Source: a virus
Length of the DNA: 55,704 nucleotides
Virus record (IMG/VR): IMGVR_UViG_3300041964_000008
Span: 1-55,704 of that record
Reading direction: 5' to 3' (one strand)
A model generated the notes under the pieces. It had not been told where the DNA came from. It made no database searches and was given only the letters and a program-made list of their open reading frames with translations. Shown piece by piece: positions 6,217-54,737 of this stretch (the stretch's first letter is position 1; each line of letters begins with the position of its first letter). The position numbers and the translations under genes were made by a program.

Positions 6217-9200
6217 TGAACCACTCGAAATCGCCGAACTTCTGGATGGTCTTGACGGCCTCATCAGCAAGTCTTTCGAAGTACGACATGTTGATGTTGC
6301 CGACTGCTTTCTCACCCAGCTTTTCGACTACGTCGGCCTCGAGCCACAAATATCCCTTAGTGCCGCTAACAGCGTAGTGCTTGTCATCCACGATGCGATA
6401 GAGTGAGGCACCGTTGGCGCCTTCTCTCACAGGGACAAATCTCCCTGTGCGACCGATGAACTTCAAGCTCTTCTTCTCAGGGACTACGGGCTTGTCATGC
6501 TCGAAGTCAAGATATAGAGCGCCCTTCTGTACTTGCTTCGTCTCACAGAAGTCATCGAATACGACTGGCTCATTGCTGAACAGCTTCTTGTACACAAATG
6601 GGTGCTGGAACTGCGCACCCACTGCTTCCCATTTGCCGTCAGACTTCTTCGCAATATAGACCGCGTCATTCACAAGGCAGAACTTGTCGTAGGTAGCCTC
6701 ATGCTCGAAGTCGTACCCATACTTCTCACCAAAGCGAACCACGAACTCACAGATCTCAGGTGTGGCGTTCGGGATCTTGATGGAGTCTGTCTTGATATGA
6801 GCGACGGTGAAGCCCTCAGCCTGCACAGCGTGCTTGAGATCGATCATGAACAGAGCACCGCGCTTAGCAACGATGTTGTCCTGGTTACGTCGATCTCGGA
6901 AAGGCGTGTCGAACTTCGCACTTGTTAATCCATAAACCGTGTTGATCACAATCTTTAGAGCATACGCAAGAGCCTCGGCATGCGCGGGATCCTCAAGATA
7001 TGGAACCAGCTTTCCGTTAAGCATCTGTCGCGCATTGTTATAGTCTCGATGCTTGATAGCCATACGAGCATTCTTCAGATCAGAGAACTTCGGCGTGTAC
7101 TCGTTTCCGAACAAATTCAGCTGTTCGATGGATGTAGGATGCATGGACGCGATGTCCAATACCGCCACATTTTCGTACATACCAGGCTCAGAATAGACGT
7201 ATCCTCCCTCGCCAGGCTCTTCATCGCGATAGTAACTCTTGCCCAATTCGAACCGATAACCAGGAAAGTCCTTAGCCAAGTTCGTGTACTTGAACTGCGA
7301 TTGAGGGTTTCGATCCTTGCCAAATATGATTCGAGCGGTGTGCTTCTGCGTTGTGTCATTGACTGTCAAACCGCTGAGTTCGGCAAGAATCTGACGCGCG
7401 ATGAAGTCCTGCTTCCGTGCATTGAACGTGGCCTCAGTTGTCTCCACGTCATTCACACAGTACTCAACGACCTTGTCCCACTGGTCCTTTGGAACTGGCT
7501 GATCCCAAGGAATATCGAGCTCCACGTGACGAAGCCCTAGCTCGATCTGGAACTTCTTCAGGCTCTGCTTCTTCGAACTGAAGTCGTAGATATCAGTGTA
7601 GGAGATGTTGAACGCCTCACCGAACAGAGCATTGCGATCGTTGTTGATGATCTTCTGGCTCAGCTTGTACAGTTCCTCATTGCTGTAGCCCATGAATCGA
7701 GCGTAGAGGATATGGTTGTCGTACCGGCGATTGTTGAAGCCGATCAGACGGTAGCCTAGAAGAGGCTCCACGTCCTTACCAGGTGGGTTGATCATCTTCT
7801 GGACTTCAGTCGCACCTTCGTACTTCCAGCACACTACGAAGAGGTTAGGATATACCTCCACGTCAAAGAACACCAAGCGCATGTCCTCTGGACCGTTCTT
7901 GTCCGTCACACCTGGGTGGTAGATCGGATCCTTTTCCATGAGGTCGACAATATCCTTGCCCTGGAACTTCATCTGTTGAACGATCTTCAGGCACTGCAGA
8001 GCCTGGTTGGTGCTGTTGTTCGCGAAAGCCATGATCTTCGGCTTCAAATCTGTCAGGTCATACGAGAGACCATCTTCGTATGCCTCGTCCATGATCTTCT
8101 TGATGAAGTCGATCGAGGACTTTGTCCTGGATGTATCTCCTTTCGAAGATTTCGAGCAATCAGGTCACGCATCCCCTTCTCGCTCTGAATGGTCTTTACA
8201 TCCAGCATCTTCTTCTCCTTCAGGGGGAGTCCGGAGGATATGATTCCAATAGGTACGCCGTTACACTTAGTGAGGTCGACGACGTAGAGAGCTATCTCCT
8301 GTGAAGACCTTAACTTCAATTCCTTCAGAGAAGACATTAGAGAGTCGGTCAACATCTCTTCGTAACGGTAATGGAGATGTACTCCGCTCCCGGACTTACT
8401 AAGCTCGGCGTAAGTAGCGGGCCAGACACTTGCGGCTTCGAGATTCCGTTCAAGGGATTTCTCTCCATCCTCGCCTCTCAGATCAAAGTCAATGACAATA
8501 TGATGTCCGGGACCTTGACGAAGTGCAACTCTGACGTGTCGATATCGTCGAGTCTCGTCTCAACCTCGGACCACTTCTTCTTGGGGGTCTCTGCCTTAGT
8601 GGCCCCCTGGGCCGGCATGTTATCAACTCCCAGTCCAGCAAGGACTCCGTCTGATCTAGTACCAACGAGAAGCTAGGAGCGTCTGCAGACGGTTCCTTGA
8701 ACTTGTTGGCGTTGAAGCCCTCGTAATAACTGCGTACAAGCTTCCCGTCACGACGAGCCCGATCCTTAAACGAATCGAAGTAGTTCCGCAGCTCTTCACG
8801 GAACTTGTACTTAGGCATGATCCGCTCGATGCCTGACTCTCCGCAGTACTCCTTGTACAACGCATAGGCCTGCTCCAACGAGGTACCGTCTTGAGCCTTG
8901 AATATGTCGTAGTAGGCCTCGATGAAGTTGAAGAACACGTCCGTCTGAAGCATCATCTCAAGAGGACGATATGCGTTGTAGTAGTTCTTTCCCATGGATC
9001 GATACACCTCAAGGCAGTGATACGCAATAGCCCCTAGTTGAAAGTCGATCTGCGTCATGAGAGTGTTGAAGTGGTTGTTCGGAATATAAACACCTGTCGG
9101 GTGAACATCTATGAGCCGTCGAATGATGCCCGACTTCGAGTCCGAGATCTTGACAGGTTGGTTGGTACCCATGAAGAGAAATGCATTGACCTTGGCCGTG

Positions 9201-16826: not shown

Positions 16827-17617
16827 TCACTGCATGTGGCTGTAGTTCCTGAGAGGGGCTGCATCGAAATCAAGCGAGATACACGGCCGTCCGTCATCGG
16901 CCAGAACTGGCGTCGGATCGATCTCGAACTCGTCACCCATGGCCGTCCAACCGACGTGATCGGACAACTTGGTGGCTGAAATACCGATCAGCTCGTAGAA
17001 GTCGGTCAACGACGCCTCATCGTTCTTCAAACGCTTGGCGTTGACCTTGTTCTGAGCATCCAGAATCGTGTGCATGTCACTGTAGAAATATCGCTCGGAC
17101 ATGGGGTCGAAGCACAGCACATCTCCTCCTCCCGTGATGATGATCTGTGCCTTGTTCGGAGGATGCCGATCGAACTTCTCCTTCGCCACCTCTGCACGCA
17201 CCTTCGACTCCTTGGTCAGGCCAAAGTGCTCTTTCACCTTGTCCTTGTACTCGGAGTGAGCACGCTGAGAGAGCGCAAAGGCGGTTGCCATAGCTGCTAC
17301 ACGCTGCGTGTTGATGCGATTCGCCATGACGATCGAGGCGATTGTTAGCGCTCCTGCTCCAATGGGCGGAATATAGAGCGTCCACAGAAGTCGTGTCTTG
17401 TCCATCCAGTCGACAGGCTTCGCGGTCCTCTTCGATGCCGTAGCATCTTTGGTTCGAGCGATGCGCTCCATCTGGAGGATGCCGGCGGACTTGTATGCAG
17501 CCCGTCCGGTCAAATATGCGGTTGCGACCGTGCCGAGTACTCCGATACCCGTCAGATGGTCGGTGAGTTGTCGGTGATGAGCTTGCCTGCTTTGTAGCTG
17601 AACTTGGAAAAGTCCAT
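16827..17617 (-). CDS. DUF6353-family membrane protein (copy 2, one apparent frameshift)
   Basis: About 263 residues. Starts MDFSKFSYKAGKLITDN at 17617 (AAGGAG). After ITDNSPTI the frame must shift by one base near 17555 to continue LTGIGVLGTVATAYLTGRAA. Two hydrophobic helices follow the family pattern (GVLGTVATAYLTG and WTLYIPPIGAGALTIASIVM). The soluble part has QIIITGGGDVLCFDPMSERY, LTDFYELIGISATKLSDHVG and SLDFDAAPL. DUF6353 is a phage family of unknown role; the copy at 11625-12539 is larger. Confidence 0.75.
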
Positions 17618-17840: not shown

Positions 17841-17982
17841 TCATTCGCGGACGAAGATCCAGATGAGCCAGAGCCCACCCGTGAGCAACGTCATGATGAC
17901 GTCGCCCAAGAAGGCAAGGCATCCGTACTGCTCGAACGTTGGTCTGACCGGACTCGACGTGGCATAGCTCGTCATATCTCAT
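17841..17982 (-). CDS. Small membrane protein (one apparent frameshift)
   Basis: About 46 residues: MRYDELCH, one-base shift near 17960, then SPVRPTFEQYGCLAFLGDVI, MTLLTGGLWLIWIFVRE and stop. ATG 17982 follows TTGGAAGG. The second half is a classic helical hairpin or single membrane span (LTGGLWLIWIF). 142 bases is not a multiple of three, supporting an indel. Confidence 0.55.
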
Positions 17983-18017
17983 GCGGATCCTTCCAATAGG
18001 GGGGGGTCGAAAAGTGT

Positions 18018-18099
18018 GAGAAGATGTATACGATGGATGGTCGTATCACTTCAAGTTCAGCGGCCGGGTTAGGGCTCGATGACTCATAAGTGTCTTCTC
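18018..18099 (-). ncRNA. Candidate structured RNA A (three-way junction)
   Basis: The minus strand folds as an outer stem GAGAAGA/TCTTCTC, an adjoining stem CACTT/AAGTG and a hairpin ATACGA-7 nt-TCGTAT, with the helices directly abutting. It lies immediately after a promoter-like element (18098-18125) and contains no good ORF. The T-loop and D-loop consensus of a tRNA is absent. The start of transcription might trim part of the outer stem. Confidence 0.4.
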
Positions 18100-18125
18100 A
18101 TTAGGGGGCTTGTTTTTTTCGCGAG
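18098..18125 (-). promoter_or_regulatory. Promoter-like repeat element
   Basis: Minus strand: GACTCGC, seven bases, ACAAG, then CCTAATGA. It points into candidate RNA A. Confidence 0.55.
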
Positions 18126-18135
18126 TCAAAAATTT

Positions 18136-18259
18136 GAGGAGAGGTATACGGCCCAACGAAAGCTGTATCGTTAACTAGCTGCTTGGTACTTGCTAGCACT
18201 CCGGGTAGGATTCTAACCTACACATTCGTGTCTCGGAAACTCTTTCGAGTTCTCTTCTC
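18136..18259 (-). ncRNA. Candidate structured RNA B
   Basis: Outer stem GAGAAGAG/CTCTCCTC with one mismatch encloses hairpins AACTC-GAAA-GAGTT, GTAGG-7 nt-CCTAC and CTAGC-11 nt-GCTAG. No ORF or ribosome site. The GTAGG hairpin has a tRNA T-arm-like loop (TTAGAAT), but no matching acceptor or D-arm was found. Confidence 0.4.
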
Positions 18260-18286
18260 ATTAGAGGCCCTGTTTTCTCTGCGAAA
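18258..18286 (-). promoter_or_regulatory. Promoter-like repeat element
   Basis: Minus strand: GTTTCGC, seven bases, ACAGG, then TCTAATGA. It points into candidate RNA B. Confidence 0.6.
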
Positions 18287-18292
18287 CATGTA

Positions 18293-18363
18293 GACCATGT
18301 ATTCAATGACAGGCTTTAACTGGAATGATCTCTGCAGCGAAGTAATTGCTGAATTGCATGGTC
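18293..18363 (-). ncRNA. Candidate structured RNA C
   Basis: 71 nt with outer stem GACCATG/CATGGTC extended by ATTC/GAAT across a small internal loop, and an inner CAGC/GCTG hairpin. It follows the promoter-like element at 18364-18391 directly. No ORF. Confidence 0.4.
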
Positions 18364-18391
18364 TCATTAGAGGCCCTGTTTTCCTTGCGAA
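18364..18391 (-). promoter_or_regulatory. Promoter-like repeat element
   Basis: Minus strand: CTTCGC, seven bases, ACAGG, then TCTAATGA. It points into candidate RNA C. Confidence 0.6.
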
Positions 18392-18394
18392 GAA

Positions 18395-18421
18395 TAAGAG
18401 CCCGTGTTGGGGGACTCTTAT
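18395..18421 (-). terminator. Hairpin TAAGAGTCCC/GGGCTCTTA
   Basis: Imperfect stem on the minus strand after the 18430-18576 gene, immediately before the promoter-like element at 18364. Confidence 0.55.
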
Positions 18422-18429
18422 TCGTGAAG

Positions 18430-18576
18430 CTACTTCTTGAGGGAGCGGACGGTCTTCTTTGTCGCTCCACCAAGCACTCGAACCACGAGCAGGATGAGTA
18501 GCACTGGGATGAGCAGTGCGATCATCATGATCGAGATATCGAAGGCGTTGGCGGAGATCGTATTCCAGATTTCCAT
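18430..18576 (-). CDS. Small membrane protein
   Basis: 48 residues: MEIWNTISANAFDISIMM, then IALLIPVLLILLVVRVLGG and a basic tail ATKKTVRSLKK. ATG 18576 follows GAAAGGA. One transmembrane helix with a positive C-terminus, so the N-terminus is probably outside. Monocistronic between a promoter-like element and a hairpin. Confidence 0.75.
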   Translation of the reverse strand: MEIWNTISANAFDISIMMIALLIPVLLILLVVRVLGGATKKTVRSLKK

Positions 18577-46730: not shown

Positions 46731-49436
46731 TCATCCGCCTAGCTCCTTCTTCAGTGTGGTGAGGGAGACGCCTAGGGCAGCAGCGATCTCGCCTTGGGTG
46801 TAGCCCTGGTCAGCCATCTGTTTCGCTCTGTTGATCTTGGTGGAGGTCATCAGTTTGGTTGAACGGGGGGTTGCAAGAGCCTTCACGATGTCGAGGTCGG
46901 CATTGTCTAGGATTCGTGCTAACTTGGTAGGGCTGATTGCCCCAGCCTGCACGGCTTCCCACTCACGGGGGGTAATTTCGATCTTTTGTTTGCCTGCCCC
47001 CATTCGCATTCGTGCCTCAGTGAGTGCTTGTCCTTCAACCTTCTTGCGTGTAGCAGGGTCCATGTTTGGATTGGAGGCCACTTTAGCAGCGATGGCGGTA
47101 TTTGCAATGACCTGGGCCTGTCTTTCAAGGGGGGCATTGCGTTGCGCAATCTTTAGCTTTGCTGTTAGTGAATCAGCTTCAGCCTTGAATGCCTTGTTAG
47201 CCTGATTGTCATAAGGCTTGTTCTTGATCGAGAGAGTAGACAGACGAGCGTCATTGGCTAAGGCCTTCATTCGATTAGAATGATCGGCATAGATCTTCTC
47301 CATGACTGTAGGGTTAGGCCGTGATGTCAGAGTGTGAGCATCGTTGGTCTCAGCCAACTTAACAGACTGCTCTGTTAGAACCTTACGCAAACCTGTCTTA
47401 GTGAAGTAGTGCTCACCAGTCTCCTTATAGACCTTCTCACCAGTCTTAGGATCTATAGGTCCACCCTCAGAAGCCCTTCGCAGTCTACGCCTAGGTACAT
47501 CCGTTCGAGACGTAGCCCTAGAGATCAGTGTAGAGGATCCACCAGGACGACCACCTGTCTCTTTAGCCTGATACTTACGCTGTAGAGACACGATGTTGTT
47601 GTCTATGAAAGACTGCTTGTAGTTCAACTCATGGTTCACAGCATCGATGACAACCATAGCGTGACGTACAGCAGCAGCGATCTCATCAGGCTTAGCCTTC
47701 TTAAGAGTCATGTCTGTGATGAGGTTAGAGACAGACCCCATCTCAAAGCCCTTCTCACCTTCAGTCATCACCTTCATACCATCAAACTTAGGGTAACTCA
47801 GCTTGGCATCAAAGTCCTTTAGACCCTCTAATCGAGCAGTGGTCTTTATCTTGGGATTAGCGATAGGGTTCGGTATCACAAGGACTGTGTCACCATCAAA
47901 GTCTGCACCAGACAGGTGTCCAGCAACCTTGCTATGGATGCCCACTACATCCTTAGCTAGAGGACCAATGAGCTTTACAGCCTCAGGTTGACGATTGTTG
48001 ACTATCAGTTCAGGGATCTCGAACGTACCACCATGAGGGAAGCGAATCAGAGCGACTCGCTCTCCATGATCGTAGTTGGGCGCATAGATCTCTGTTACCT
48101 TCATGCTGTCGATAGGAAGAAGCACTTGTGTGCTCTGACGTGGCAGCTTGTGTGCCGTTAGCTCTACAGCTAAGGAGTCAGCACTATCAGCATAGCTCTC
48201 AAGAAGCTTCTTCTTGACTGTGGGGTTGGTGAGAGCCTTGATCTCGTCAAGTTCCATCTTTCGCTGTTCATGAGTCATAGACAATTGAGTTTTAGCCAGA
48301 ATAGGACTCTGCTTAGACAGAACTTGTGTAGAGATGACGTTTCTCCACTTGTCCCAGTCACCTTCCTTGTTCACAAGGTTCATTGCAGAGGTAACTTCGA
48401 GAATCGGCCCATCTGGATACTCACGTTTTCCGATTTGCTTGATAGTAGCCCCAAAAGGATTCTCAGGATCATCGGAAATCGGCTTTAGGACAGCTAGCTT
48501 GTCCTTGTACTTAGGATCGCTCTTAAGCTTGGGTGTATGGAATTGAATGTCCGTACCACGAGGAAGATCGTCCTTGTACATGGCCATACCCTTGATGTAG
48601 TGAGTACCATCAACCAAAATTCGAACTTGTGCGTAATTGGCACCTCCCAAAGAGAGGTCATCCTTACCAGGACGCAAATAGACCAATCCATCAAGCTTAG
48701 ATCCACCATCCTCACCGTACACGACCTTGATTCGACTTGAACTTACGGAAAGCGGAGACTTGGTTTGGTAGTACGACCGTCCACCGTCATCAGAGATCGT
48801 CGTGATGTCCTTGATCTGACCGAGATCTTTGACGAGGTCCTTATACGTAGTTCCAGGCTTAGCCAACACCTTAATAGTGGTCTTCTTACGACCACCAGTC
48901 CCGATTGTAGGTGTCTGAACTAGCTCATACGCATAACCTTCGGCTTTTAGGATGCTAACGGCCGTAGCAAGAAACTCCTTGCTCACATAGCGGTGATTCT
49001 CGACACCTCTACCAACATCGATAGCCCCTTTTTCCGCAATCTGGTCACGAAGCATTTGAGCAGTCGCTTTGAGGATGCTGACCTTCTCTAATTCGCCTGG
49101 CTTGAGAAGGCTTCGAACAGAAGACTCGTTAATCCCCATCTTCTCGCCAATAGCGATGTTCGACAGACCTTTATCCTTCAACTTCTGAGCAGTCGCGATG
49201 TCAGCTGCCTTTTTGGCGTTTCGAGCAATGGTCTTCGTGATTCTCAGATCTGTGGTGGACATATCAAGGCCTTTTGCGATTTGAAGATCCGTAAGACCCT
49301 TATCCTTCATCTCCTGGATGTAATCCGTGAACATCTTGCTTCGCTTGGCCTCAGTTCCACCAGAACCCCAAGGATAGCGACCTGACTTTCGAAGAATGCC
49401 GTAGTGTGCCAGATGTGCGCTTTCATCAATGATCAT
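46731..49436 (-). CDS. Double-psi beta-barrel RNA polymerase-like protein with helix-turn-helix domains
   Basis: 901 residues, ATG 49436 overlapping the previous stop, behind AGGAGAGG. Residues 8-27 (HLAHYGILRKSGRYPWGSGG) resemble the 'H.G..KGMKWG' tag of this phage's head proteins. Two helix-turn-helix units follow near 37-70 (YIQEMKDKGLTDLQIAKGLD) and 82-112 (LKDKGLSNIAIGEKMGINES). The catalytic region has IRFPHGGTFEIPELIVNNRQ, AKDVVGIHSKVAGHLSG and ADFDGDTVLVIP at 511-522, equivalent to the NADFDGD metal-binding loop of cellular RNA polymerase beta-prime and YonO/QDE-1-type enzymes. Then EMGSVSNLITDMTLKKA and AMVVIDAVNHELNYKQSFID. A third helix-turn-helix ends the protein (MADQGYTQGEIAAALGVSLT). 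Transcription by a single-chain polymerase is the leading hypothesis; the family is known in phages but poorly characterised. Confidence 0.75.
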   Translation of the reverse strand: MIIDESAHLAHYGILRKSGRYPWGSGGTEAKRSKMFTDYIQEMKDKGLTDLQIAKGLDMSTTDLRITKTIARNAKKAADIATAQKLKDKGLSNIAIGEKMGINESSVRSLLKPGELEKVSILKATAQMLRDQIAEKGAIDVGRGVENHRYVSKEFLATAVSILKAEGYAYELVQTPTIGTGGRKKTTIKVLAKPGTTYKDLVKDLGQIKDITTISDDGGRSYYQTKSPLSVSSSRIKVVYGEDGGSKLDGLVYLRPGKDDLSLGGANYAQVRILVDGTHYIKGMAMYKDDLPRGTDIQFHTPKLKSDPKYKDKLAVLKPISDDPENPFGATIKQIGKREYPDGPILEVTSAMNLVNKEGDWDKWRNVISTQVLSKQSPILAKTQLSMTHEQRKMELDEIKALTNPTVKKKLLESYADSADSLAVELTAHKLPRQSTQVLLPIDSMKVTEIYAPNYDHGERVALIRFPHGGTFEIPELIVNNRQPEAVKLIGPLAKDVVGIHSKVAGHLSGADFDGDTVLVIPNPIANPKIKTTARLEGLKDFDAKLSYPKFDGMKVMTEGEKGFEMGSVSNLITDMTLKKAKPDEIAAAVRHAMVVIDAVNHELNYKQSFIDNNIVSLQRKYQAKETGGRPGGSSTLISRATSRTDVPRRRLRRASEGGPIDPKTGEKVYKETGEHYFTKTGLRKVLTEQSVKLAETNDAHTLTSRPNPTVMEKIYADHSNRMKALANDARLSTLSIKNKPYDNQANKAFKAEADSLTAKLKIAQRNAPLERQAQVIANTAIAAKVASNPNMDPATRKKVEGQALTEARMRMGAGKQKIEITPREWEAVQAGAISPTKLARILDNADLDIVKALATPRSTKLMTSTKINRAKQMADQGYTQGEIAAALGVSLTTLKKELGG

Positions 49437-53103: not shown

Positions 53104-53132
53104 TCATTATGCACCATGTATACCTCGCGAAA
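53104..53132 (-). promoter_or_regulatory. Promoter-like repeat element
   Basis: Minus strand: TTTTCGC, seven bases, ACATG, then CATAATGA. It serves 52899-53081. Confidence 0.65.
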
Positions 53133-53133
53133 A

Positions 53134-53158
53134 CCGTAAGCCCTTGTAGGCGCTTAGG
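53134..53158 (-). terminator. Hairpin CTAAGCGCC/GGGCTTACGG
   Basis: Stem AAGC.CC/GGGCTT on the minus strand after 53167-53316, followed by GTTTTCGC. Confidence 0.55.
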
Positions 53159-53166
53159 TTGGTGAA

Positions 53167-53316
53167 TCAGTTCTTGTCGAAGTACTGGGGGTTGTCGAGC
53201 TTCCACTTCACGGCCAGGGTGGTAACCCACAGTGCGATAACGATCATGACGATGATCGCGAACGGCAACATGGTGTTAACAAAGTTGGCCCAGAAGGTAA
53301 AGATGTCTGACAGCAT
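53167..53316 (-). CDS. Small membrane protein
   Basis: 49 residues: MLSDIFTFWANFVNTMLPFA, IIVMIVIALWVTTLAVKWKL, DNPQYFDKN. ATG 53316 follows AAGGAG. One long hydrophobic helix with a short polar C-terminus. No family; monocistronic. Confidence 0.7.
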   Translation of the reverse strand: MLSDIFTFWANFVNTMLPFAIIVMIVIALWVTTLAVKWKLDNPQYFDKN

Positions 53317-53340
53317 GGCTGTTCTCCTTAGAATTGGGTT

Positions 53341-53369
53341 TCATTATGCACCATGTAAATCTCGCGAAA
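53341..53369 (-). promoter_or_regulatory. Promoter-like repeat element
   Basis: Minus strand: CTTTCGC, seven bases, ACATG, then CATAATGA. It serves 53167-53316; nearly identical to the copy at 53104. Confidence 0.65.
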
Positions 53370-53371
53370 GA

Positions 53372-53392
53372 GAAAGCCCTTGTGGCCTTCTC
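53372..53392 (-). terminator. Hairpin GAAGGCC/GGGCTTTC
   Basis: Short imperfect stem on the minus strand after 53399-53548. Confidence 0.45.
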
Positions 53393-53398
53393 TCCCCT

Positions 53399-53548
53399 TC
53401 AGTGGGACGCTTTGTAGCTGTAGTTCAGTTGGAAGCTTCCGCTGTCCGGTGAGTGATTGAAGCAGTAGGGTTCGTCGTCATAAGCGACGTACTCTACGCA
53501 ATCAGGATGCTCACACGGGTGGAAGTCAGGGTTCTGTAACTCTGACAT
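53399..53548 (-). CDS. Small zinc-binding protein
   Basis: 49 residues: MSELQNPDFHPCEHPDCVEY, VAYDDEPYCFNHSPDSGSFQ, LNYSYKASH. C-x4-C followed eleven residues later by C-x2-H gives a CCCH zinc site. ATG 53548 follows GAAAGG. The long frame upstream to 53806 is antisense noise. Function unknown. Confidence 0.7.
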   Translation of the reverse strand: MSELQNPDFHPCEHPDCVEYVAYDDEPYCFNHSPDSGSFQLNYSYKASH

Positions 53549-53570
53549 GTCGTGCCTTTCTAATAGGGAT

Positions 53571-53599
53571 TCATTAGAGGACATGTATAACCAGCGAAA
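53571..53599 (-). promoter_or_regulatory. Promoter-like repeat element
   Basis: Minus strand: GTTTCGC, seven bases, ACATG, then TCTAATGA. It serves 53399-53548. Almost identical to the copy at 54174. Confidence 0.65.
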
Positions 53600-53600
53600 C

Positions 53601-53625
53601 CGTAAGCCCTTGTAGGGGCTCACGG
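53601..53625 (-). terminator. Hairpin GTGAGCCCC/GGGCTTACGG
   Basis: Stem GAGCCC/GGGCTT with CTACAA loop on the minus strand, after 53631-53816. Confidence 0.6.
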
Positions 53626-53630
53626 ATGAA

Positions 53631-53816
53631 TCAGTACAGCTGGCCTTTGGCGGCTCGGTGTTTGAGGCTGAGTTCGCGGTTTCTCTGGATCCATTTCGAG
53701 ATCGTCTGTTCGTAGAGGTCGTCGTAGAAGGTGTCCTTCTTATCTGATCTCTTGTAACGTTCGAGCTGTTTCTTCTCCAGATGATTTGCGCGACGAGCAT
53801 ATCCATCGATTGCCAT
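53631..53816 (-). CDS. Basic helical small protein
   Basis: 61 residues from MAIDGYARRANHLEKKQLER, ATG 53816 behind GAAAGGA. YKRSDKKDTFYDDLYEQTIS and KWIQRNRELSLKHRAAKGQL are highly charged and helical. Possibly nucleic-acid binding by composition. Not recognised. Confidence 0.65.
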   Translation of the reverse strand: MAIDGYARRANHLEKKQLERYKRSDKKDTFYDDLYEQTISKWIQRNRELSLKHRAAKGQLY

Positions 53817-53839
53817 CGTGTTCCTTTCTTGTAGTGGAT

Positions 53840-53868
53840 TCATTATAGGGTCTGTTCCTCACGCGAAA
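53840..53868 (-). promoter_or_regulatory. Promoter-like repeat element
   Basis: Minus strand: TTTTCGC, seven bases, ACAGA, then TATAATGA. It serves 53631-53816. Confidence 0.65.
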
Positions 53869-53869
53869 A

Positions 53870-53894
53870 CCTATACCCCGTGTAGGGATATAGG
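53870..53894 (-). terminator. Hairpin CTATATCCC/GGGGTATAG
   Basis: Stem of nine positions with loop TACAC on the minus strand, followed by GTTTTCGC, after 53902-54150. Confidence 0.65.
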
Positions 53895-53901
53895 GTTGAA
53901 C

Positions 53902-54150
53902 TCAGCGTAGAAGGATGGGCGTGAGCTTGAACTTGCCCTGGGGGATGTCGTAGACGCAGTCGCGTCCGAGCGTCATGACGAGGAAGTCGACCGGCGTCAC
54001 TTCCAGTAGCGTTGCCGACTGTATCGAAGCGTAAAACTTCGAGTACTTTCGGGAAACGATTACGGTGGAAATGACGGCGGCGACTGCAACGGCATGAGGC
54101 GCGTACTTGACGACCTTCTCCTTGACTTCCGAGCGTGTTGGGATGTTCAC
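53902..54150 (-). CDS. Small membrane protein with GTG start
   Basis: 82 residues. GTG 54150 is five bases after AAAGGA and no usable ATG exists in frame. MNIPTRSEVKEKVVKYAPHA, then one transmembrane helix (VAVAAVISTVIVSRKY) and a soluble C-terminal part (IQSATLLEVTPVDFLVMTLG, RDCVYDIPQGKFKLTPILLR). Monocistronic. No family. Confidence 0.7.
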   Translation of the reverse strand: MNIPTRSEVKEKVVKYAPHAVAVAAVISTVIVSRKYSKFYASIQSATLLEVTPVDFLVMTLGRDCVYDIPQGKFKLTPILLR

Positions 54151-54173
54151 ATTTGTCCTTTCTTGTGGTGGGT

Positions 54174-54202
54174 TCATTAGAGGACATGTATAACCAGCGG
54201 AA
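54174..54202 (-). promoter_or_regulatory. Promoter-like repeat element
   Basis: Minus strand: CTTCCGC (one change from TTTCGC), seven bases, ACATG, then TCTAATGA. It serves 53902-54150. Confidence 0.6.
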
Positions 54203-54203
54203 G

Positions 54204-54230
54204 CTGAAAGCCCTTGTAAGGACTTTCAGA
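54204..54230 (-). terminator. Hairpin CTGAAAGTCC/GGGCTTTCAG
   Basis: Ten-position stem with TTACAA loop on the minus strand, after 54245-54421. Confidence 0.7.
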
Positions 54231-54244
54231 TGAATATCAGGGGA

Positions 54245-54421
54245 TCAGCTGCGACAGCCGTAGTTGCTGTTGTGAGCCAACACCCTGACTGAGGAGTTCG
54301 GGTCTGCATAGATCTTGCAACCATACTCACATGAGCTGATTGCGATTTCGTACATGCGTGCACGAACCGTGGGGTCGGGGTGAATGAGCTCGTTGTGGGA
54401 AGTGGTGTACGTGATGTGCAT
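54245..54421 (-). CDS. Small Cys-containing protein
   Basis: 58 residues: MHITYTTSHNELIHPDPTVR, ARMYEIAISSCEYGCKIYAD, PNSSVRVLAHNSNYGCRS. ATG 54421 follows AAGGAG. Three Cys (C-x3-C and a late C) plus His may bind metal. Cytoplasmic, unrecognised. Confidence 0.65.
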   Translation of the reverse strand: MHITYTTSHNELIHPDPTVRARMYEIAISSCEYGCKIYADPNSSVRVLAHNSNYGCRS

Positions 54422-54442
54422 ACTTACTCCTTAATGAGGGAT

Positions 54443-54471
54443 TCATTAGAAGCCATGTTCCCTACGCGAAA
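54443..54471 (-). promoter_or_regulatory. Promoter-like repeat element
   Basis: Minus strand: CTTTCGC, seven bases, ACATG, then TCTAATGA. It serves 54245-54421. Confidence 0.65.
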
Positions 54472-54494
54472 GCTGAGAGCCTTTGTAGGGCTCT
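54472..54494 (-). terminator. Hairpin CGAGAGCCC/GGCTCTCAG
   Basis: Stem GAGAGCC/GGCTCTC on the minus strand, after 54504-54677. Confidence 0.65.
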
Positions 54495-54503
54495 CGCTTG
54501 TGA

Positions 54504-54677
54504 TCAGTACGCACTCCAGTTTGGGGCGTTGACGACGGTGCACGAGGACGTTTCTTCGCAGGACTCCTCGACGACGGCCTCCGCGTTGGCCTCCTGCCCG
54601 TGGTAAAGGGTGGTGGCGAGTGCGGTGACTACGACGAGGAGTACCATGATGAACACGTTCTTGAGTGTGTGGGTCAT
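54504..54677 (-). CDS. Small secreted or membrane-anchored peptide (copy 1)
   Basis: 57 residues from MTHTLKNVFIMVLLVVVTAL, ATG 54677 behind AAGGAG. The N-terminal helix (FIMVLLVVVTALATTLY) is a signal peptide or anchor. The exported part HGQEANAEAVVEESCEETSS, CTVVNAPNWSAY has two Cys five apart and a final P-x-W. Paralog of 54777-54945. Confidence 0.7.
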   Translation of the reverse strand: MTHTLKNVFIMVLLVVVTALATTLYHGQEANAEAVVEESCEETSSCTVVNAPNWSAY

Positions 54678-54708
54678 TACATTACTCCTTGATGGGTGGT
54701 GATACTTG

Positions 54709-54737
54709 TCATTAGGAGCCATGTAAAACGTGCGAAA
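54709..54737 (-). promoter_or_regulatory. Promoter-like repeat element
   Basis: Minus strand: TTTTCGC, seven bases, ACATG, then CCTAATGA. It serves 54504-54677. Confidence 0.65.

Follow-up and report, generated by a model that had tools for sequence, protein, structure and literature searches.

Bacterial Y RNAs such as YrlA combine paired ends with a domain resembling transfer RNA (tRNA), and in tRNA itself the T-arm stacks on the acceptor helix. The latter arrangement is treated in a review of the tRNA elbow (PMC4810234). Phages carry RNA anti-CRISPRs (Racrs), small RNAs that lie directly behind a promoter, mimic host RNA, and copy CRISPR repeats, as set out in PMC10651486. Two-barrel RNA polymerases related to QDE-1 include YonO, the promoter of which was still to be determined according to PMC5467207. 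We present here an island in a 55.7-kb virus contig (IMG/VR record IMGVR_UViG_3300041964_000008; the whole stretch analyzed is hereafter called the window) in which a promoter element occurs three times on the minus strand, each copy immediately followed by an end-paired RNA (RNAs A, B, and C). RNA B belongs to a structured RNA family with a conserved fold and a covarying pseudoknot, and the family is apparently widespread in viruses and undescribed. The island RNAs resemble Racrs in layout and in the proposed mimicry of a host RNA.

RNA B (18135..18260, minus strand) consists of a terminal helix, P1, with ends GAGAAGAG and CTCTCCTC and one A-C mismatch, then a hairpin, P1a, and a family core (18140..18239, minus strand) described by the covariance model R1. 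The core contains helices P2 and P3, a T-arm-like P4 with the 7-nucleotide (nt) loop UUAGAAU, helices P5 and P6, and a pseudoknot between CGAA and UUCG. A T run follows (AAATTTTTGAC, 18124..18134, minus strand), at which transcription likely terminates. The folding energy alone is not unusual (z −1.44), and the fold was established by covariation. In alignment A3, made from 12 short relatives with the window excluded, 94.1% of cells are paired, and 45 cells changed on both sides while keeping the pair, versus 13.2 in shuffles (0 of 500 as high). R1 was built from the A3 relatives, so that the window lies outside its training set, and in the window it matched RNA B alone, at full length (48.9 bits, E 1.1e-10). 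Across 95 sources (from 145 loci, plus the window), R1 gave 29 matches at E 0.1, and it matched all 21 loci that had been found by a sequence pattern. The 51 R1 matches, 47 of them distinct, have 95.4% of cells paired and 210 cells changed on both sides, versus 47.3 shuffled (0 of 500), a value also far above those of slid versions of the structure. This larger alignment leans towards the structure because it was fitted to R1; A3 and A6, made with MAFFT only, were not so fitted.

Alignment A6 covers the subtype of the window, in which 11 full-length relatives share the whole architecture of RNA B. Here 92.3% of cells are paired and 65 changed on both sides, versus 17.4 shuffled, with P1 left out of the count since its ends are shifted in the alignment. 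P1a is present in this subtype and poorly aligned (65% of cells); in the family as a whole, no helix is weaker than P3 (85.1%). The consensus computed by RNAalifold from A6 recovered P2, P4, P5, and P6, did not recover P1a or P3, and paired columns of the P6 loop, one of which is assigned here to the pseudoknot. That pseudoknot, between CGAA of the P3 loop and UUCG of the P6 loop, was not built into R1 and nonetheless has 93% of cells paired, with 7 cells changed on both sides versus 1.8 shuffled. It is fully complementary in 38 of the 47 distinct sequences, in four combinations that include CUAA/UUAG and CGUA/UACG beside the CGAA/UUCG of the window. The original prediction had proposed structured RNAs here, to be checked by covariation; RNA B passed that check and is firmly a structured RNA. 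A loose structural regular expression returned 166 matches, mostly false, and was not used.

Part of RNA B resembles tRNA (RF00005). P4 has the five pairs and 7-nt loop of a T-arm with U54, R57, and A58 (GUAGG-UUAGAAU-CCUAC in the window), and the same signature (U at loop position 1, purine at 4, A at 5) occurs in 36 of the 41 seven-nt loops among the 47 distinct sequences, some relatives having UUCGAAU. P4 also joins the neighboring helix without a linker, as the T-arm joins the acceptor helix in tRNA. The D-arm, anticodon arm, and CCA end of tRNA are lacking, however; one relative scored 13 bits, below the Rfam tRNA threshold, and RNA B of the window gave no score. Several observations count against reading P4 as a tRNA copy. 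Canonical TTCRA is found in only 5 of the 41 seven-nt loops, and because most relatives have noncanonical loops, the likeness may be only that of the common T-loop fold; in addition, P1a and P5 extend the core helices, and no CCA end follows. RNA B shares paired ends and a tRNA-like part with YrlA, but no Rfam family other than a tRNA fragment matched the island (at E 5) or one relative (at E 10). The window had no Rfam 15 match at gathering score, and the island had none even at E 5 with 4,227 models, presumably including YrlA. ARAGORN found no tRNA gene in the window, and no full cloverleaf with an anticodon was seen, in agreement with the statement of the original prediction that these are not tRNAs. 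That prediction missed the likeness of part of RNA B to a tRNA arm, and also the phage-specific promoter and its tie to a phage RNA polymerase. Across 15 related loci, Rfam identified only two true tRNAs, both at locus L078.

RNA B occurs in cultured phages. A BLAST search with one relative (L106) found 23 Gordonia phage records that carry it, with nothing annotated under the match, and it is also present in the Rhodococcus equi phages ReqiPepy6 and ReqiPoco6. In the six Gordonia phages examined (Secretariat, Schwartz33, Gill, Hydrus, Conley, and Fazel), RNA B lies downstream of a minor tail gene; annotated membrane-protein genes surround it in five, and the genes in Conley are annotated as hypothetical. 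These Gordonia and Rhodococcus phages, in which RNA B is unannotated, are tractable, so that tests of what it does could begin immediately. One degenerate RNA B pattern matched 26 stretches in viral contigs, versus 1 in 84,980 bacterial and archaeal species genomes. The sole cellular match lies in a Bacillales bin (CAMKPL010000006; L156) and scores 42.2 bits with R1. There, an RNA B-like core (7480-7565, minus strand) forms part of a longer RNA that is closed by a GAAGGA/TCCTTC helix and has a T run after it. RNA B was not among the matches listed for BLAST searches of phages with window-derived queries, and literature searches, thin on subscription journals, returned no description of these RNAs among their results. 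Covariation reveals RNA B to be a family of phage RNAs unmatched in Rfam.

Other tRNA-like RNAs were observed in the same setting. Gordonia phage Kenosha (L143, 7528-7606, minus strand; ~33,351 in the phage) has, in a neighboring cassette with a promoter of its own, a tRNA-like RNA that lacks annotation. This RNA scores 42.6 bits to RF00005, and only a four-base loop remains of its anticodon arm; matches to the stretch occur in 63 phage records. The Streptococcus small RNA SpF41 of Rfam scored 23.9 bits on it, below the threshold of 52. RNA B has in common with this anticodon-less type the promoter, the neighboring cassette, the T-arm, the closing helix, and the lack of annotation, but the Kenosha-type RNA resembles a whole tRNA and falls outside the RNA B family. 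Arthrobacter phage Gordon (L147, 4069-4129) carries an RNA with an acceptor-like helix and a canonical T-arm (UUCGAAU), seemingly without an anticodon arm and with no Rfam match. In ReqiPepy6 (L146, 4119-4191), an element beside RNA B is annotated as tRNA-OTHER, is called Ala(AGC) by ARAGORN, and has the same promoter.

The promoter element has the consensus TCGC-N7-ACA-N7-TAATGA. From the motif list, the island copies lie at 18364..18390 (RNA C), 18258..18284 (RNA B), and 18098..18124 (RNA A), all on the minus strand. The three promoter-like elements and three end pairings of the original prediction were thus found where it had placed them, read on the minus strand. The window contains 16 such sites, all on the minus strand and none on the plus strand. 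The same element precedes many of its protein genes; in those cases a ribosome-binding site and a start codon come after the GA.

End pairing was tested by searching for an exact 8-nt complement of the 5′ end at 38 to 150 nt, with 1,000 shuffles each. Among the 16 sites, only RNA A (P 0.003) and RNA C (P 0.004) have one; the 13 sites outside the island reach at most 6 nt, and RNA B scores nothing because of its one mismatch. A cross-virus set of at least 119 stretches was picked from a viral collection with the pattern TCGC-N7-ACA-N7-TAATGAGARG, without regard to the 3′ half. The loci collected contain 148 distinct sites for which 170 nt of downstream sequence is available, and 64 of these have an exact 6-nt 3′ arm plus a T run; in 100 shuffled sets the mean was 0.24 and the highest count 2. 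Directly after the 3′ arm, 44 of 67 cases have an A, which could pair with the T at −1. Because GAGARG and the 3′ arm pair much more often than expected by chance and an A commonly follows the arm, GAGARG probably lies inside the RNA, with the start at or just before it. A point on the other side is that the two window sites fitting the pattern both fail this strict test, RNA A having only four T's and RNA B its mismatch. Since the paired ends fix where transcription must start, they make the element a candidate for the promoter used by one class of phage RNA polymerase.

The anatomy of RNA A, like that of RNA B, is well supported. RNA A (18017..18100, minus strand; ends TGAGAAGA/TCTTCTCA) folds into the compact three-way junction that had been predicted for it (−26.1 kcal/mol, z −4.60, 0 of 200 shuffles as good), and its position is shared: of eight genes in the loci collected that resemble the 44-amino-acid (aa) gene downstream of it, six have a promoter and an RNA directly upstream. 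In the window and at L023, L083, L090, and L112, these RNAs are different small folds, and at L096 the RNA is RNA B. The place before the gene therefore appears to be conserved while its content is exchanged. Fold and synteny support the earlier claim of structure well for RNA A, and for RNA C the support is weak.

RNA C (18291..18366, minus strand; ends AGACCATG/CATGGTCT) is the weakest of the three candidates, with a folding energy that is not unusual (z −1.30) and no relatives in the searches made. BLAST of the island surroundings against phages gave no relatives of RNA A or C in the best 20 of 74 records. It is possible, though we doubt it, that RNA C is instead a tiny near-leaderless gene: an open reading frame (ORF) of 18 codons begins at its first ATG (MQFSNYFAAEIIPVKACH), a few bases after the GAG, and is open to its stop, the GAGACC start occurs in many messenger RNA (mRNA) leaders of relatives, and the fold is weak with no strong T run. 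The 8-nt end pairing, at P 0.004, argues for the RNA.

The enzyme proposed to read these promoters is a 901-aa phage RNA polymerase encoded at 46731..49436 on the minus strand (phrog_4291, 1,180 bits), with a DFDGD motif at residue 512. Its structural model (mean predicted local distance difference test score 77, predicted template modeling score 0.59) matches QDE-1 (Foldseek 1.6e-8 to 2j7n; Z 15.9 over 378 residues, root mean square deviation 4.8), as well as P74 gp62 (Z 13.2) and P32 gp64 (Z 11.9), from what we take to be Thermus phages. As modeled, it has the two-barrel fold with DxDGD of a QDE-1-like single-chain RNA polymerase. This fold and the DFDGD motif are likenesses to the YonO, Thermus phage, and QDE-1 enzymes as treated in PMC5467207, but the YonO record itself is not matched by phrog_4291. 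Among 41 whole records, 35 contain the polymerase and 6 do not; the exact promoter was found in 30 of the former and 1 of the latter, always confined to one strand per record, and a reversed control pattern never occurred. Because many of these records had been found by the promoter, the fair test is provided by 20 contigs chosen by polymerase alone (from 80 loci, those on long contigs), and 18 of these have the promoter.

Some results do not fit a simple pairing of polymerase, promoter, and RNA B. The exact promoter is missing from five of the 35 records that have the polymerase; the L066 contig (79.7 kb) has eight exact promoters on one strand and no phrog_4291 polymerase was found in it; and a promoter test on SPbeta/YonO was negative, phrog_4291 missing the YonO record and the motif not being seen upstream of yonK. 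R1 matches only 1 of the 20 polymerase-picked contigs, so that RNA B is patchy; set against the promoter in 18 of 20, this suggests that RNA B is changeable cargo and the promoter a core trait.

The reading we put first, held tentatively and at somewhat under an even chance, is that the island consists of RNA-gene cassettes producing stable effector RNAs from the phage polymerase, with RNA B a partial tRNA mimic. Each cassette would comprise a phage promoter followed by a short RNA starting at or just before GAG, and the closing helix of the 5′ and 3′ ends, together with the T run after it, would end transcription and hide both RNA ends. The promoters would most likely be read by the phage's own QDE-1-like single-chain polymerase. 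RNA B would be a noncoding effector with a core that imitates the T-arm of a tRNA stacked on an acceptor-like helix and is held in place by the pseudoknot, and RNAs A and C may be other cassettes of a fast-changing repertoire. RNA B might act by occupying a host protein that recognizes tRNA, as a decoy or counter-defense RNA; this is the foremost of its candidate functions and still a doubtful one. Of the roles offered by the original prediction (regulatory RNA, decoy, or packaging RNA), a decoy or mimic is favored because of the tRNA-like T-arm, and nothing was found for packaging.

Regulation of mRNA or protein ranks next for RNA B. The island RNAs could be regulators, the loops of which pair with or sequester a phage or host mRNA or a regulatory protein while the tRNA-like arm serves as a stable scaffold. 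This is rather unlikely but deserves weight, as many cassettes share the closing helix and not the inside, several repeat one hairpin as sponge RNAs do, and the P6 loop of RNA B has a conserved unpaired GUUGG; the conserved loop of RNA B, however, is engaged in the pseudoknot, and no target emerged, though no search was aimed at one. Transcription of the island by the host polymerase, from promoters of the ordinary sigma-factor type with TATAAT as the −10 element, is about equally improbable. TATAAT is the sigma-70 −10 consensus and the motif precedes ordinary genes too, but a sigma-70 start about 7 nt downstream would drop the GAGARG that pairs with the 3′ arm, and five phage records that lack the polymerase also lack the motif, which is present in 18 of the 20 contigs picked by polymerase. 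A standard sigma-70 scan of the window did not include the three island promoters among its calls. A role as packaging or virion RNAs, in processing or structure, is very improbable: Gordonia phage cassettes do sit downstream of tail genes, but free variation in copy number, type, and presence among related phages is unlike a packaging part, and there is no Rfam link to packaging RNA.

Extending the effector-cassette reading beyond this locus is more speculative than any of its parts above. Phages with QDE-1-like polymerases might possess an interchangeable arsenal of small RNA effectors, each sequestering a different host factor, with TCGC-ACA-TAATGA as the promoter of this polymerase type. 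One promoter and one closing-helix chassis would then hold insides as different as tRNA-arm mimics, anticodon-less tRNAs, repeated hairpins, and small junctions. If true, the arsenal would be an RNA counterpart of protein anti-defense islands.

The large ORFs of the window that match phage gene families are all on the minus strand. Upstream of the island is a gene for a 48-aa membrane-like protein (18430..18576, minus strand; ORF list), for which protein family searches gave no match and which retrieved nothing as search bait. A hairpin between this gene and the island (18393..18423, minus strand; AATAAGAGTCCCCCAACACGGGCTCTTATT) is its likely terminator. Directly downstream of RNA A is the gene for a 44-aa membrane protein (17841..17975, minus strand; phrog_29296), relatives of which also lie behind a promoter and small RNA, and then a gene for a DUF6353 membrane protein (16827..17513, minus strand; Pfam DUF6353, 187.6 bits). 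The island had been described as having no ORF, which holds only loosely, as mechanical ORFs of 31 to 49 aa cross it and RNA C has its 18 codons. Elsewhere in the window, minus-strand stretches at 53105-54735 and 635-1696 contain runs of short genes, and many of these genes have a G+C-rich hairpin and a T run immediately ahead of the following promoter.

Cassettes in related phages vary freely in copy number, type, and presence. At L037 (2829, minus), L071 (317, minus), L072 (9083, plus), L105 (6059, minus), and L113 (1419, plus), the same hairpin or loop occurs two or three times, as in sponge RNAs. A second recurring RNA type, with the common sequence GAGCCUAUGG...CUGCAGAUACUU..ACCAUGCG, is found at L063 (586, minus), L072 (9735, plus), and L037 (3198, minus).
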